Made by a program: the position numbers and the translations under genes. 64,000 nt of DNA from Treponema succinifaciens DSM 2489 (GTDB lineage: Bacteria > Spirochaetota > Spirochaetia > Treponematales > Treponemataceae), in contig NC_015385.1 in the NCBI RefSeq assembly GCF_000195275.1, forward strand, positions 1,194,501 through 1,258,500, given 5' to 3'. Positions 11,971 to 43,917 of this stretch are shown here, one piece after another. The notes beneath the pieces were generated by a model, which was not told where the DNA came from, did not search any database, and saw only the letters and a program-made list of their open reading frames with translations. Position 1 is the stretch's first letter; each line of letters starts with the position of its first letter.

Positions 11971-12099
11971 TGTCATCTTAGGGCTTGCCCCTGCGATGTT
12001 TCTGAAAGAAACTCGGTTGATAATCTATTTAAAATTTCCAACAGATTCCTGACCGAGTTTACTGCGTAAACATCGCAGTGTCGTAGCACGGGAATGACA
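11971..12099. repeat. Repeat family B, copy 1 (two inverted 34-bp hairpin units)
   Basis: The element begins TGTCAT and ends ATGACA. It holds two inverted copies of a 34-bp unit (11993-12026 plus, 12043-12076 minus) with the core CGATGTTT..hairpin..AAACTCGGT....AATCT. The short hairpins are GTTTCT-GAA-AGAAAC and GTTTAC-GCA-GTAAAC. It fills the space between the convergent ribH and hisS genes and may act as a terminator region. About 45 bp of plain AT-rich sequence follow before the hisS stop. Confidence 0.8.
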
Positions 12100-12146
12100 C
12101 TTAAATTACTGTTCTTATCAAAACTTGACATTTGGGCTAATAAAAC

Positions 12147-13448
12147 TTAGTCTTTGATTTTACTTGCAGCATCTTCAATTGAAATAGATTCAAAGATTTC
12201 CCTTGTCTTTAAGTTCTTGAGTGTGATTGTATTCGCAGTTTCGCTGTTGCTTGAAAGCATGATTCCCCAGGGAATTTGTTTTTTATCTGTTACAGAATAC
12301 TGTTTGTTGATTTTTACAGTGTCTGGGAATACTTCCACGGAAATTCCTTCTTTGCGGAGTTTTGCCGCCACTTCCTGATATTGAACATTCAGATTTTCAT
12401 CAGTGTTGAATATTTCCACATCAAGGTAGCTGCCTTTTGCATTTGTAATTCCAAGCTCAGAAAGCCCCGCAATCAGCCTGTCCAAACCAATGCTTGAACC
12501 TACGCCTGGCAGTTTTTCCTTCATGTAAAGACCTGCAAGGTTGTCATACCTTCCGCCGGAACAAACAGAGCCTATTGACGGAAGTTTCTCAAGGAAAGTT
12601 TCGTAAACAATGCCTGTGTAATAGTCAAGTCCGCGTGTGATTGCAGGATCAAGCATATAAGTGCCTTCAATTCCCGCTGCTTTCATCATGCTGAAGATTG
12701 TTTTCATGCGTTTTGAGTCTTCATCTTCGCCGCCGGCAAGCTCTTCTATGTGTGAAAGTGTCTCTTCAAAAGAAGAAAGGGGCTTTATGTAGTCAATAAT
12801 CTTTGCGCTTGAATCCGCGTTTCCTGTAATTTCTTCAAGTTCCGCTGAAACTTTTTCTTCGCCAACTTTGGCAATCTTGTCTACTGCTCTCAAAATATCT
12901 TCCGACTTTTCTGAAAGGCCAAGTTTCTTTAAAAAGCGGTTGAAAATTCCTCTGTGGTTTACGTGAATCTTTATTTCGTCAACGCCAATTGCAGAAAGGG
13001 CTGCTTTCATAAGGCTTAGTGTCTCAAAGTCCGATACTGCGCTGTCGCTTCCTACTGTGTCAAAGTCGCACTGTACAAATTCTCTGTATCTTCCTACCTG
13101 AGGCTTTTCTCCGCGCCATACTTTTGAAATGTGGTATCTTTTGAATGGAAAGTAAAGTTCTTCTTTGTGCTGTGCAGTGAATCTTGCGAAAGGAACTGTC
13201 AAGTCAAATCTCATTGCGACATCTCTTCCGCCGTTGTCTTCAAAGCGGAACATCTGCTTTTCTGTTTCGCCGTTGCTTTTTCTGAGCAAAATTTCTGTAT
13301 ATTCAAGAACAGGAGTGTCTATAGGAACGAATCCGTAAGAGCGGAATGTCTTTGTGAGTTTTTCAATTAAATCAGAACGCAAAATTTCATCCTGAGGAAG
13401 AAAGTCTCTGAATCCTTTTAAGATTTTTGGTTGAATAAATGTTTCCAT
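12147..13448 (-). CDS. hisS: Histidyl-tRNA synthetase
   Basis: 433 aa, class II synthetase charging tRNA-His. Motif 2 is FRAE-like in YHISKVWRGEKPQVGRYREFVQCDFD, and the HisRS-specific motifs RGLDYYTGIVYE and GGRYDNLAGLY are present; motif 3 is GVGSSIGLDRL. The C-terminal anticodon-binding domain spans about residues 335-433. It opens METFIQPKILKGFRDFLPQD. It is transcribed alone, divergently from coaX, with no Shine-Dalgarno sequence before the ATG. Confidence 0.95.
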   Translation of the reverse strand: METFIQPKILKGFRDFLPQDEILRSDLIEKLTKTFRSYGFVPIDTPVLEYTEILLRKSNGETEKQMFRFEDNGGRDVAMRFDLTVPFARFTAQHKEELYFPFKRYHISKVWRGEKPQVGRYREFVQCDFDTVGSDSAVSDFETLSLMKAALSAIGVDEIKIHVNHRGIFNRFLKKLGLSEKSEDILRAVDKIAKVGEEKVSAELEEITGNADSSAKIIDYIKPLSSFEETLSHIEELAGGEDEDSKRMKTIFSMMKAAGIEGTYMLDPAITRGLDYYTGIVYETFLEKLPSIGSVCSGGRYDNLAGLYMKEKLPGVGSSIGLDRLIAGLSELGITNAKGSYLDVEIFNTDENLNVQYQEVAAKLRKEGISVEVFPDTVKINKQYSVTDKKQIPWGIMLSSNSETANTITLKNLKTREIFESISIEDAASKIKD

Positions 13449-13456
13449 AATAAAAT

Positions 13457-13485
13457 ATACTATAATATAAATAGAATTTGCTCAA
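13457..13485 (-). promoter_or_regulatory. Candidate hisS promoter, leaderless geometry
   Basis: TTGAGC, 17 bp, TAGTAT on the minus strand, with 8 nt to the ATG. TATAGT at 15-bp spacing is an alternative -10 box. No ribosome binding site is visible. Confidence 0.5.
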
Positions 13486-13536
13486 TGAGTATGAGTATTT
13501 TGGCAATTGTTGGCTTCATTTATATTTTTGCCTTGC

Positions 13537-13565
13537 TTGAAAAAAAAATGCAAATGCAATATTTT
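13537..13565 (+). promoter_or_regulatory. Candidate coaX promoter
   Basis: TTGAAA, 17 bp, TATTTT, followed by a short leader that contains the GGAGG ribosome binding site at 13588-13592. It is divergent from the hisS promoter. Confidence 0.45.
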
Positions 13566-13598
13566 TAATAAAATGGAACGTATTGCTGGAGGATGAAA

Positions 13599-14405
13599 TT
13601 GCTTTTTGCGGTGGATATTGGAAACACAAATATTGTCGCAGCTATCTTTGATGGCGATAAAATTGCTGTTCAGTGGCGCATTGCAACTGATTCAAGACGT
13701 ACAGGAGATGAATATACTTCTATTTTGCTTACGCTTTGCAGGGAAGCCGGGATCCAGATAAAGTTTCTTGAAAAAAGCATTATAAGTTCTGTTGTTCCTG
13801 CCTTGATTGGGCCTTTTGTTATTGTATGCCAGCATCTGTGCGGAAAAAATCCGTTTATCTTGTCTTCTGACCTTGCCTATAGCGGACGTCTTCCTGTCAG
13901 GCTTGATTCAGCTTCGCCTCATACAAATATTGGAACAGATTTGCTTTGCAATGCGGTGAGCGCCTGGAATTTATTTGAAGGAAAAGGTCCTGTTATTGCG
14001 GTTGACTTTGGGACGGCTCTGACTTTAACTGTCGCTGATTCAGGCGGAACAATCCGTGGTGTTACTATTTCTCCTGGGTTGGGAACTGCTATAAAAGCCT
14101 TGGCGACCAATGCGGCCCAGCTTCCGTTTGTTTCTTTGGAAGCTCCGTCTTCAAGCCTTGGAATGAATACAGAAACTGCAATTCAGGCAGGTGTTGTTCT
14201 TGGATACAAGGGTCTTGTTGAATATCTGGTTCTCCAAGTTAAGGCTGACCTTGAAAAACTTACAGGCGACAAGGCTGAAACTGTAAAAGTTGTTGCAACA
14301 GGCGGACTTAACAAAGTTCTAAAGCCAATTACAGATGTGTTTACTGTTGTTGACAAAGATTTGACAATCCGCGGACTTAAGATTATTTCTGATTTGGTGT
14401 TGTAG
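13599..14405 (+). CDS. coaX: Type III pantothenate kinase
   Basis: 268 aa; phosphorylates pantothenate, the first step of coenzyme A synthesis. The acetate/sugar-kinase-fold phosphate motif is DIGNTNIVAAIF at the N-terminus. Further CoaX motifs are PHTNIGTDLLCNAVSAW, VDFGTALTLTV and GVTISPGLGTAIKALATNAAQLP. The ATG at 13593 directly abuts GGAGG, so the TTG at 13599, 6 nt after it, is the better start and gives the usual MLFAVDIGNTN opening; the ATG cannot be excluded. It is convergent with the NeuB-family gene, with no clear terminator. Confidence 0.93.
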   Translation: MLFAVDIGNTNIVAAIFDGDKIAVQWRIATDSRRTGDEYTSILLTLCREAGIQIKFLEKSIISSVVPALIGPFVIVCQHLCGKNPFILSSDLAYSGRLPVRLDSASPHTNIGTDLLCNAVSAWNLFEGKGPVIAVDFGTALTLTVADSGGTIRGVTISPGLGTAIKALATNAAQLPFVSLEAPSSSLGMNTETAIQAGVVLGYKGLVEYLVLQVKADLEKLTGDKAETVKVVATGGLNKVLKPITDVFTVVDKDLTIRGLKIISDLVL

Positions 14406-14416
14406 AAATCTGTTTT

Positions 14417-15574
14417 TTACCTTTGGATAAAGTCTTCCCACTTGACTCCATCGCCTGAGCGCACCTCTTTTTCCAGTATAGAGCCTTCTATTGTGGAGAA
14501 ATATTCAGGGCTTATTCCGGGTGAAAGAATTTTTTCTGTCCGCAGTACGGAAATGTCGTCCGGCTGTATTCTGCTTCCTTTTTTTAGTGAACGCATATAG
14601 TGAAGGGAGCGGTTTGTTCTTCCGTAGTTTTCTTCTTCTGCCGGAGCAAGTCTTTTTATTCCTGTTCCCAACGCCGCTGTGATTTTTTCACTTGGAAATT
14701 CGTATTCAAGCTGTTTAAGAATCTCCTTTTCAGCTGCATTTTCTAAGTTTTCTTTTACGGCTTTTCCTTCTTTTTTATAGCGTTCTTGTATTGAAATCGC
14801 CTGCTTGACAGAATGAACCATTACAGCAAACTGCTCAGGTTCAAGAGCCACAGGATCGTCTAGTCCGCTGTCTTTTTTGCTTAGCGTAATGTGCTTTTCA
14901 ATTATGCTTCCTCCCATAAGAACTGTAAGAACAGGGACTAAAACTGGATCAAGGCTGTGGTCGCTTATTCCTGTTGGAATCCCAAATATTTGGCGTAGAG
15001 TTTTTACACATTTTATGTTGTATTGTTCTTCTGGCGCAGGATAGAAAGTTATGCAGTGAAGCAAAGTTAAGTCTGGAAAGGATTTTTCATTTGCGCAAGG
15101 TTCTTTTTTATTTTGGATTATTTGAATTGCTTTTTCTATGTCGCCCAGCTTGGAAACTCCGCTTGAAATGATAATTGGAATTTTCTGATAATAATCTGCG
15201 CATTTGTGTAAAAGCGGAAAATGATTCAGTTCTGGACTTGCGATTTTTATCGCGTCTGGATTAAGTTTTGCAAGCTCTTCAAAAGATTTTGTTCCGAAAG
15301 GTGAGCAGGCGAATAAAAGTCCTTTTTTATGTGAATATTCAAGGCATTTTTTGTAGAAATCGGAAGAGCATTCAAGTTGCTTGAATGTGTCATAAAGCCG
15401 GGTTTTTCCTCCAGGCAAATTTACAAATCCTGTGTCTGGATGCAAAATCTCATCGGCATAAACCCATTGGAATTTTACGCAGTCTGCACCTGCAAAAGCG
15501 GCCGCGTCAATAAGTTCATGTGCTTTATCTAAAGAACCTGCGTGCGCAGTTCCAATCTCAGCGATTATCTTCAT
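14417..15574 (-). CDS. NeuB-family nonulosonic acid synthase with SAF domain
   Basis: 385 aa; the family condenses phosphoenolpyruvate with a hexosamine derivative to make sialic, legionaminic or pseudaminic acid. The NeuB domain (1-245) opens IAEIGTAHAGSLDKAHELIDAAAFAGADCVKFQ and ends with GISDHSLDPVLVPVLTVLMGGSIIEKHITLSKK. The C-terminal SAF/antifreeze-like domain (about 315-385) has RSLHYMRSLKKGSRIQPDDISVLR. Which nonulosonic acid is made cannot be told from sequence alone. It is a single gene with its own strong promoter, away from other glycan genes, but partner functions occur elsewhere in the window. Confidence 0.88.
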   Translation of the reverse strand: MKIIAEIGTAHAGSLDKAHELIDAAAFAGADCVKFQWVYADEILHPDTGFVNLPGGKTRLYDTFKQLECSSDFYKKCLEYSHKKGLLFACSPFGTKSFEELAKLNPDAIKIASPELNHFPLLHKCADYYQKIPIIISSGVSKLGDIEKAIQIIQNKKEPCANEKSFPDLTLLHCITFYPAPEEQYNIKCVKTLRQIFGIPTGISDHSLDPVLVPVLTVLMGGSIIEKHITLSKKDSGLDDPVALEPEQFAVMVHSVKQAISIQERYKKEGKAVKENLENAAEKEILKQLEYEFPSEKITAALGTGIKRLAPAEEENYGRTNRSLHYMRSLKKGSRIQPDDISVLRTEKILSPGISPEYFSTIEGSILEKEVRSGDGVKWEDFIQR

Positions 15575-15581
15575 GCCTTTG

Positions 15582-15610
15582 ATTATAATTGTTCAGCATT
15601 TGAAATTCAA
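15582..15610 (-). promoter_or_regulatory. Promoter of the NeuB-family gene, leaderless geometry
   Basis: TTGAAT, 17 bp, TATAAT on the minus strand; the perfect -10 box ends 7 nt before the ATG at 15574. An AAAGG directly before the ATG is too close to serve as a normal ribosome binding site. Confidence 0.65.
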
Positions 15611-15633
15611 CAGAATGAAATTTAAAGCAAAAA

Positions 15634-15791
15634 GGGGATGTCTAATAAGTTCTAAATGTCATTGTCGTACCTGATACTTCGATGTTTGCATAGCAAACTC
15701 GGTTAACAATCTCTAAATGATTGCAATATATGCATTTAGATTTTCGGGTCAGGCTCGAAAATGACAAAAAGGATACTTTTGGGACATCCCC
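15634..15791. repeat. Repeat family B, copy 2, within an outer inverted repeat
   Basis: The outer ends are GGGGATGTC (15634-15642) and its reverse complement (15783-15791). The inner ends are TGTCAT (15657) and ATGACA (15766). A 34-bp unit at 15679-15712 matches the units of copy 1 and has hairpin GTTTGC-ATA-GCAAAC. The right arm is diverged. It lies between the divergent neuB-like gene and ileS. Confidence 0.75.
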
Positions 15792-43514: not shown

Positions 43515-43550
43515 AGCACCCGAAACTAAAAAAAAAAGTTTCCAAGTGCT
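43515..43550. terminator. Bidirectional terminator between the HTH gene and tmRNA
   Basis: Inverted repeat AGCACCCGAAACT / AGTTTCCAAGTGCT separated by A-rich sequence, flanked by an A-run on the left and TTTT on the right. On the minus strand it follows the tmRNA 3' end directly; on the plus strand it follows the HTH gene. Confidence 0.75.
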
Positions 43551-43552
43551 TT

Positions 43553-43917
43553 TGGAGATGGCGGGAGTTGAACCCGCGTCCATGCAAGCAAACCAAGCAT
43601 CTCTACAGGTTTATTGAAGCGAGGTAGTTGTCGGGAAAAGGTAGCGGCTTCAAAGGCGTCTCTTCCGTATCTTGATAAAAGTCTCGAACTAATCTCAAGA
43701 AATTAGTCCAACAAGTCCCTGTCAGCAACAGAACATTTCAGCATTAGGAACAGCATACTAAAAGTTCCGGCACTGCTTAAGCAGCAAGTGCAAACTGTTC
43801 GTTTTCAGACTGTTCGTCTTCTCTACGTTTTGCAGTTATTTTTTTGTCAGTTTAAGGCACCTTCACACCTACCTGCAACACAAGATTTCTCTTGCTTGTC
43901 GAAACCGGTACATCCCC
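43553..43917 (-). ncRNA. ssrA: tmRNA (SsrA)
   Basis: 365 nt. The 5' end GGGGATG pairs with the 3' end CATCTCC (one G-U) as the acceptor stem, followed by discriminator A; CCA is not encoded. The 5' part has the canonical GGTTTCGAC; the 3' part has the T-arm GGACGCGGGTTCAACTCCCGCC. The reading frame starts at the resume codon GCA and encodes AKRREDEQSENEQFALAA followed by TAA, so degradation tag end ALAA is conventional. The partner SmpB is encoded at 30419-30883. Together they rescue stalled ribosomes. Confidence 0.95.

Follow-up and report, generated by a model that had tools for sequence, protein, structure and literature searches.

A 27-bp insert, TGCGATGTTT-N7-AAACTCGGTT, which forms a 9-bp stem with a bulged T, occupies one fixed position within the 3' arm of REP hairpins (always CCC^GATAAT) of Treponema succinifaciens DSM 2489, and on balance we consider it probably a nonautonomous mobile hairpin, resembling small dispersed repeats (SDRs), that lives inside REP hairpins of the CGTC/TGTC type. 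The window, that is, the whole stretch of 64,000 nucleotides analysed here, spans positions 1,194,501-1,258,500 of the 2.73-Mb chromosome of this strain (the own genome, G000) and holds two REP dimers, one between the convergent genes ribH and hisS (dimer 1) and one between a divergent NeuB-like gene and ileS (dimer 2). Their parts are as follows.

11971..12026, + strand: left REP of dimer 1, TGTC type, split by the insert (frame aligned with other filled copies)
11992..12018, + strand: 27-bp insert with tip CTGAAAG (borders from filled/empty pairs)
12043..12099, - strand: right REP of dimer 1, stem class TCCC with a 6-nt loop, split by the insert (empty counterpart of the same class in L020)
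12051..12077, - strand: 27-bp insert with tip ACGCAGT
12100..12139, no strand: right flank of dimer 1, one outer-palindrome arm (CTTAAATTACTGTTCTTATCAAAACTTGACATTTGGGCTA; same flank in L002, L004, L006 and L020)
15634..15656, + strand: left outer-palindrome arm of dimer 2 (GGGGATGTCTAATAAGTTCTAAA; similar arm in L019, L024, L033 and L037)
15657..15712, + strand: left REP of dimer 2, split by the insert
15678..15704, + strand: 27-bp insert with tip GCATAGC
15738..15766, - strand: right REP of dimer 2, intact (TGTCATTTTCGAGCCTGACCCGAAAATCT)
15767..15791, + strand: right outer-palindrome arm of dimer 2 (ends GGGACATCCCC)

The sequence-only reading had described a 34-bp unit in three copies. All three were recovered where it placed them, with a GCGATG start at 11993 (+), 12076 (-) and 15679 (+, there TCGATG), each beginning 22-23 nt inside a TGTCAT end, and the hairpin tip stems pair as it described. 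The unit boundaries had to be redrawn: the 34 bp consist of 26 bp of the insert and 8 bp of a host REP arm, and these final 8 bases (GATAATCT, AACAATCT, AGGAATCT) are part of the host REP hairpin. Three extra pairs of the insert stem, CGA/TCG below the bulged T, had also been missed.

The host hairpin reads TGTC-ATTATCGGG-CTTGA-CCCGATAAT-CT, with a 9-bp stem starting AT and a 5-nt loop (CTTGA; 6 nt in one window REP). The TGTC tag is present in the consensus of 67 filled copies and also in intact copies, and the tail is CT, in contrast to the CCA typical of CGTC-type REPs. In both window elements and at many other loci, the REPs lie as head-head dimers with the tags outside, and at least two kinds of outer palindrome enclose these dimers. 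Dimer 1 is without a left outer-palindrome arm because it abuts the ribH stop codon, and both arms of dimer 2 are absent in the orthologs L231 and L234. Elsewhere in the own genome, seven near-identical longer repeats (L040-L046) each carry a REP dimer in the same internal position, and the relative G085 has a related outer element whose ends resemble GGGCAAACGCATTATAAAT (L244). An Rfam scan of the window reported tmRNA only, a gene at window 43550-43917 (-), with no match at the repeat elements.

When all copies were compared side by side, the same TGTCAT hairpin was found with and without the insert. Empty forms are CTTGACCC^GATAATCT (L004), ACGACAC^GGGAATCT (L020) and CTTGATAC^GACAATCT (the rule being seen in L058), where ^ is the insert position, and filled REPs equal the empty sequence plus TGCGATGTTT-N7-AAACTCGGTT at that point. 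Filled REPs have the stem classes TATC, TGTC, TTTC, TCCC and TGCC, which are also represented among empty REPs. Counting by eye in 458.5 kb of the own genome, about 9 of 16 recognisable REPs were intact and 7 filled. A single tip class may extend across several hosts: CT..AG tips occur with 8 host stem classes and GC..GC tips with 6. The two kinds of class are nevertheless partly linked, so that much of the spread is that of whole filled dimers.

The distribution of the insert was assessed with the pattern GCGATGTTTN7AAACTCGGTT, allowing up to 3 mismatches, and with the reversed pattern as control. The own genome gave 31 places versus 2 for the control, a few of the 31 being chance matches, so that about 28 are real copies, all chromosomal. 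The relatives G021 and G085 gave 52 and 46 matches, respectively, versus 2-3 for the control, and other Treponema 0-5 each, many of them chance. Chance as the origin of the repeats was ruled out by the reversed-pattern, shuffle and slid controls. A scan of the GTDB species collection returned 94 stretches, nearly all from Treponema, and no convincing copy outside this genus: matches in Betaproteobacteria (L275) and Negativicutes (L292) have unpaired tips and unrelated contexts and were treated as chance. A lagging-strand insertion bias was also considered and rejected, as orientations look balanced in both chromosome halves, assuming that base 1 lies near the origin.

Elsewhere in Treponema, the unit is also found in a mirrored REP, AGATCCCCGGGTCAAGCCCT[unit]AAGGATGACA, again in a 3' arm, and in unrelated hosts, for example one ending ACAACGCC; for hosts of the latter type, filled copies and no clear empty counterpart were found in the sequences examined. 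Several Treponema MAGs (L280, L295, L307, L310, L314) offer a third kind of host, in which the unit follows a AAAATTGC/GCAATTTT-type hairpin. Related hairpins that lack the bulge, GCGAGTTTT-N8-AAAACTCGGTA, some of them beside small GCAACC/GGTTGC hairpins, were seen in L109, L118, L120 and L155 of other Treponema and are a possible sister family.

The consensus filled REP is predicted to fold into a three-way junction both as RNA and as DNA, and the insert alone into a 9-bp bulged hairpin (RNA -7.1 kcal/mol, z -3.1). The actual window contexts fold less cleanly, the ACGCAGT copy having a competing CTGCG/CGCAG hairpin. The compensatory change noticed in the sequence-only reading was borne out and proved wider than claimed, affecting the insert tip (GC..GC, CT..AG, AC..GT), the outer REP stem (TATC/GATA, TGTC/AACA, TTTC/AGAA, TCCC/AGGA) and the small inner hairpin. 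Of 175 copies, 164 and 163, respectively, are Watson-Crick at the two variable tip pairs, compared with shuffle means of 72 (maximum 92) and 91 (maximum 107). Of the 41 different tips, 32 show Watson-Crick pairing at each variable pair, where 15.5 and 19.9 were expected, a result reached in 0 of 5000 shuffles. Paired cells amount to 91.2% versus 82.3% after shuffling and 33-52% in slid controls, all three helices contributing, and double-change cells to 129 versus 52 shuffled; none of these shuffle figures is a probability, because the shuffles ignore the relatedness of copies. Since the change is mostly confined to a few tip classes, it represents few independent events.

The same reading implied that stems mismatch less often than loops and that the folded form is under selection. 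When the whole unit is considered, changes are only mildly depleted at stem positions (p about 0.04). In the CTGAAAG class, which comprises 59 copies and spread recently, the four stem positions of the tip had 3, 1, 1 and 4 changes and the loop positions 8, 4 and 0; this difference is not significant, no change is compensated, and recent copies show stem breaks without compensation. The covariation claim is borne out, and selection of the folded form in place is partly supported: resident copies tolerate broken stems and presence differs between sister species, so that the constraint probably lies on propagation rather than at each locus. This suggests that the hairpin is needed for copying or insertion, rather than serving a function selected locus by locus.

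G021 and G085 are sisters (95-97% identical in most flanks), and G000 is about 92% from both. At one site, filled in G021 (L148) and empty in G085 (L419), the two differ by exactly 27 bp plus two substitutions in about 145 flanking bases, and the outgroup G000 is without the entire dimer. The pair L008 (filled, G000) and L247 (empty, G021) also differs by exactly 27 bp, with G085 filled there (L135). In L122/L409, the 27-bp difference is accompanied by an adjacent GGG to GAA change, and L132/L414 show a net 27-bp difference at the insert site with changes beside the insert. L016 and L227 are likewise one filled and one empty, and in L015/L128 the unit lies in the right REP of one species and in the left REP of the other, the dimer being absent in G085. 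In both relatives, the spot corresponding to window element 1 carries TGTCAT hairpins that lack the insert, and neither relative has window element 2. Neither target duplication nor junction microhomology was found at the borders of filled/empty pairs. The insert start TGCG differs from the following GATA, and the insert end GGTT from the preceding ACCC, so simple slippage is not available. At another position, about 2,262,670 of the own genome, where a REP dimer lies, the relatives have a CRISPR-like array with the repeat GTTGCAGGTTGACTTGGAAAATTAATCAGTTATAAT (L233/L238).

Pfam searches for a mover enzyme gave no Y1 transposase (PF01797) in G000 or G021 and three in G085, and no reverse transcriptase (PF00078, RVT_1) in G000 and two each in G021 and G085. 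Clusters of similar genes that match the L007 flank are found close to the reverse transcriptases (G021:C17, G085:C42), and these regions are possibly a diversity-generating retroelement.

If the insert moves as proposed, a host or other enzyme would recognise the REP hairpin by its structure, whether extruded or single-stranded, and a copy of the 27-nt hairpin would be joined into the REP 3' arm; selection preserving the stem would act during copying or insertion. Filled REP dimers would additionally spread as wholes and give rise to the nested palindromes. The exact size and borders, a fixed 3'-arm site across REPs of several different stem sequences, the filled/empty orthologous sites without target duplication, the combination of tips with different host stem classes, the occurrence in mirrored REP arms and unrelated hosts, the three-way-junction fold and the covariation argue for this reading. 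Against self-movement, no transposition was observed, the Y1 and RVT_1 searches found no enzyme in the own genome, and at L008 presence in G000 and G085 with absence in G021 fits a precise loss or two gains. A version that dispenses with a dedicated transposase, in which host hairpin-processing or replication machinery inserts the 27-nt hairpin structure-specifically into the REP 3' arm and hairpins beget nested hairpins, we regard as doubtful.

Conversion from another filled REP would likewise account for the changes beside some inserts, such as GGG to GAA. A rare insertion could have been followed by spread and loss through short-tract gene conversion or template switching between dispersed REPs, with the REP arms as homology, a course that is possible if rather improbable: the changes adjoining the insert in L122/L409 and L132/L414, the fixed REP position, the partial linkage of tips to host class and the missing Y1 transposase and reverse transcriptase in the own genome all agree with it. 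However, the clean pair L148/L419 would require a very short donor tract, the five filled stem classes share little insert-adjacent sequence and have empty members too, and the unit is also found in non-REP hosts. An ancestral filled state at these sites, with the empty REPs arising by precise excision, appears distinctly unlikely; L008, filled in G000 and G085 and empty in the sister of the latter, is what such a history would leave, but zero border microhomology gives no slippage route to an exact 27-bp loss, and with about 50 copies in two close species and near zero across most of the genus, gain must have happened.

A structured RNA element selected in place, as a 3'-end stabiliser or terminator, would agree with covariation across all helices and with the gene context, since all 26 own-genome loci are located outside ORFs (12 convergent, 10 tandem, 4 divergent). 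Yet such locations are usual for REPs generally according to PMC3733652, the elements differ in presence between sister species, the stems decay in resident copies and the Rfam scan gave no match there, which leaves this explanation very improbable.

A mobile 27-bp hairpin would bear on an old question, how REPs and very small repeats multiply, above all the CGTC REPs without a known transposase. The insert ranks among the smallest DNA elements with apparent self-mobility and could reveal the origin of nested palindromes. Because its borders are exact, its target is fixed and several filled/empty pairs are available, insertion into hairpins is directly testable. In our literature search, no paper on such a unit in Treponema was found.

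The SDRs of Nostoc, reportedly described by Elhai and colleagues in 2008, are said to be hairpins of 21-27 nt with compensatory changes, dispersed, embedded in other repeats or minitransposons, and apparently mobile with no known enzyme. The Treponema insert is similar to them in its 27 bp, its dispersal (about 28 own copies), its structure kept by compensatory changes, its embedding in other repeats and its filled/empty sites as evidence of mobility; it differs in belonging to a spirochaete genus, in its fixed site in the REP 3' arm and in its exact filled/empty pairs in sister species. The host hairpin matches the CGTC/TGTC REP superfamily, as defined in PMC3733652 (BMC Genomics 2013): an unpaired CGTC, TGTC or CCTC tag (TGTC being common), a stem of 8-9 bp whose first two pairs are AT, a 4-5 nt loop, a short unpaired tail that is mostly CCA, mostly head-head dimers, and occurrence in spirochaetes with no dedicated transposase known. 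The Treponema REPs share the tag, the AT-start 9-bp stem, the 5-nt loop, the head-head dimers nested in palindromes and the lack of a dedicated transposase. Their tail is CT and not CCA, which is not strictly defining because that source says 'most', and a small hairpin inserted in one arm was not found described there.

Yeast mitochondrial GC clusters, including GC42 (PMC4478555), are likewise tiny palindromic mobile units with presence/absence polymorphism, stems more conserved than loops, units that merge and flanking nucleotides that vary with presence; they differ from the Treponema insert in being mitochondrial, in a putative AG target duplication and in having intron-encoded reverse transcriptases available. 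REPINs and GTAG REPs with RAYT (PMC3116915) are also short palindromic nonautonomous mobile DNA; unlike them and IS200/IS605-type elements, the Treponema unit is without a GTAG tag and without a Y1 transposase in G000 or G021, and it differs from retro-elements moved by a resident reverse transcriptase in that no such gene was found in G000. By analogy, the Treponema insert appears closest in kind to SDRs and in behaviour to the yeast mitochondrial GC clusters.
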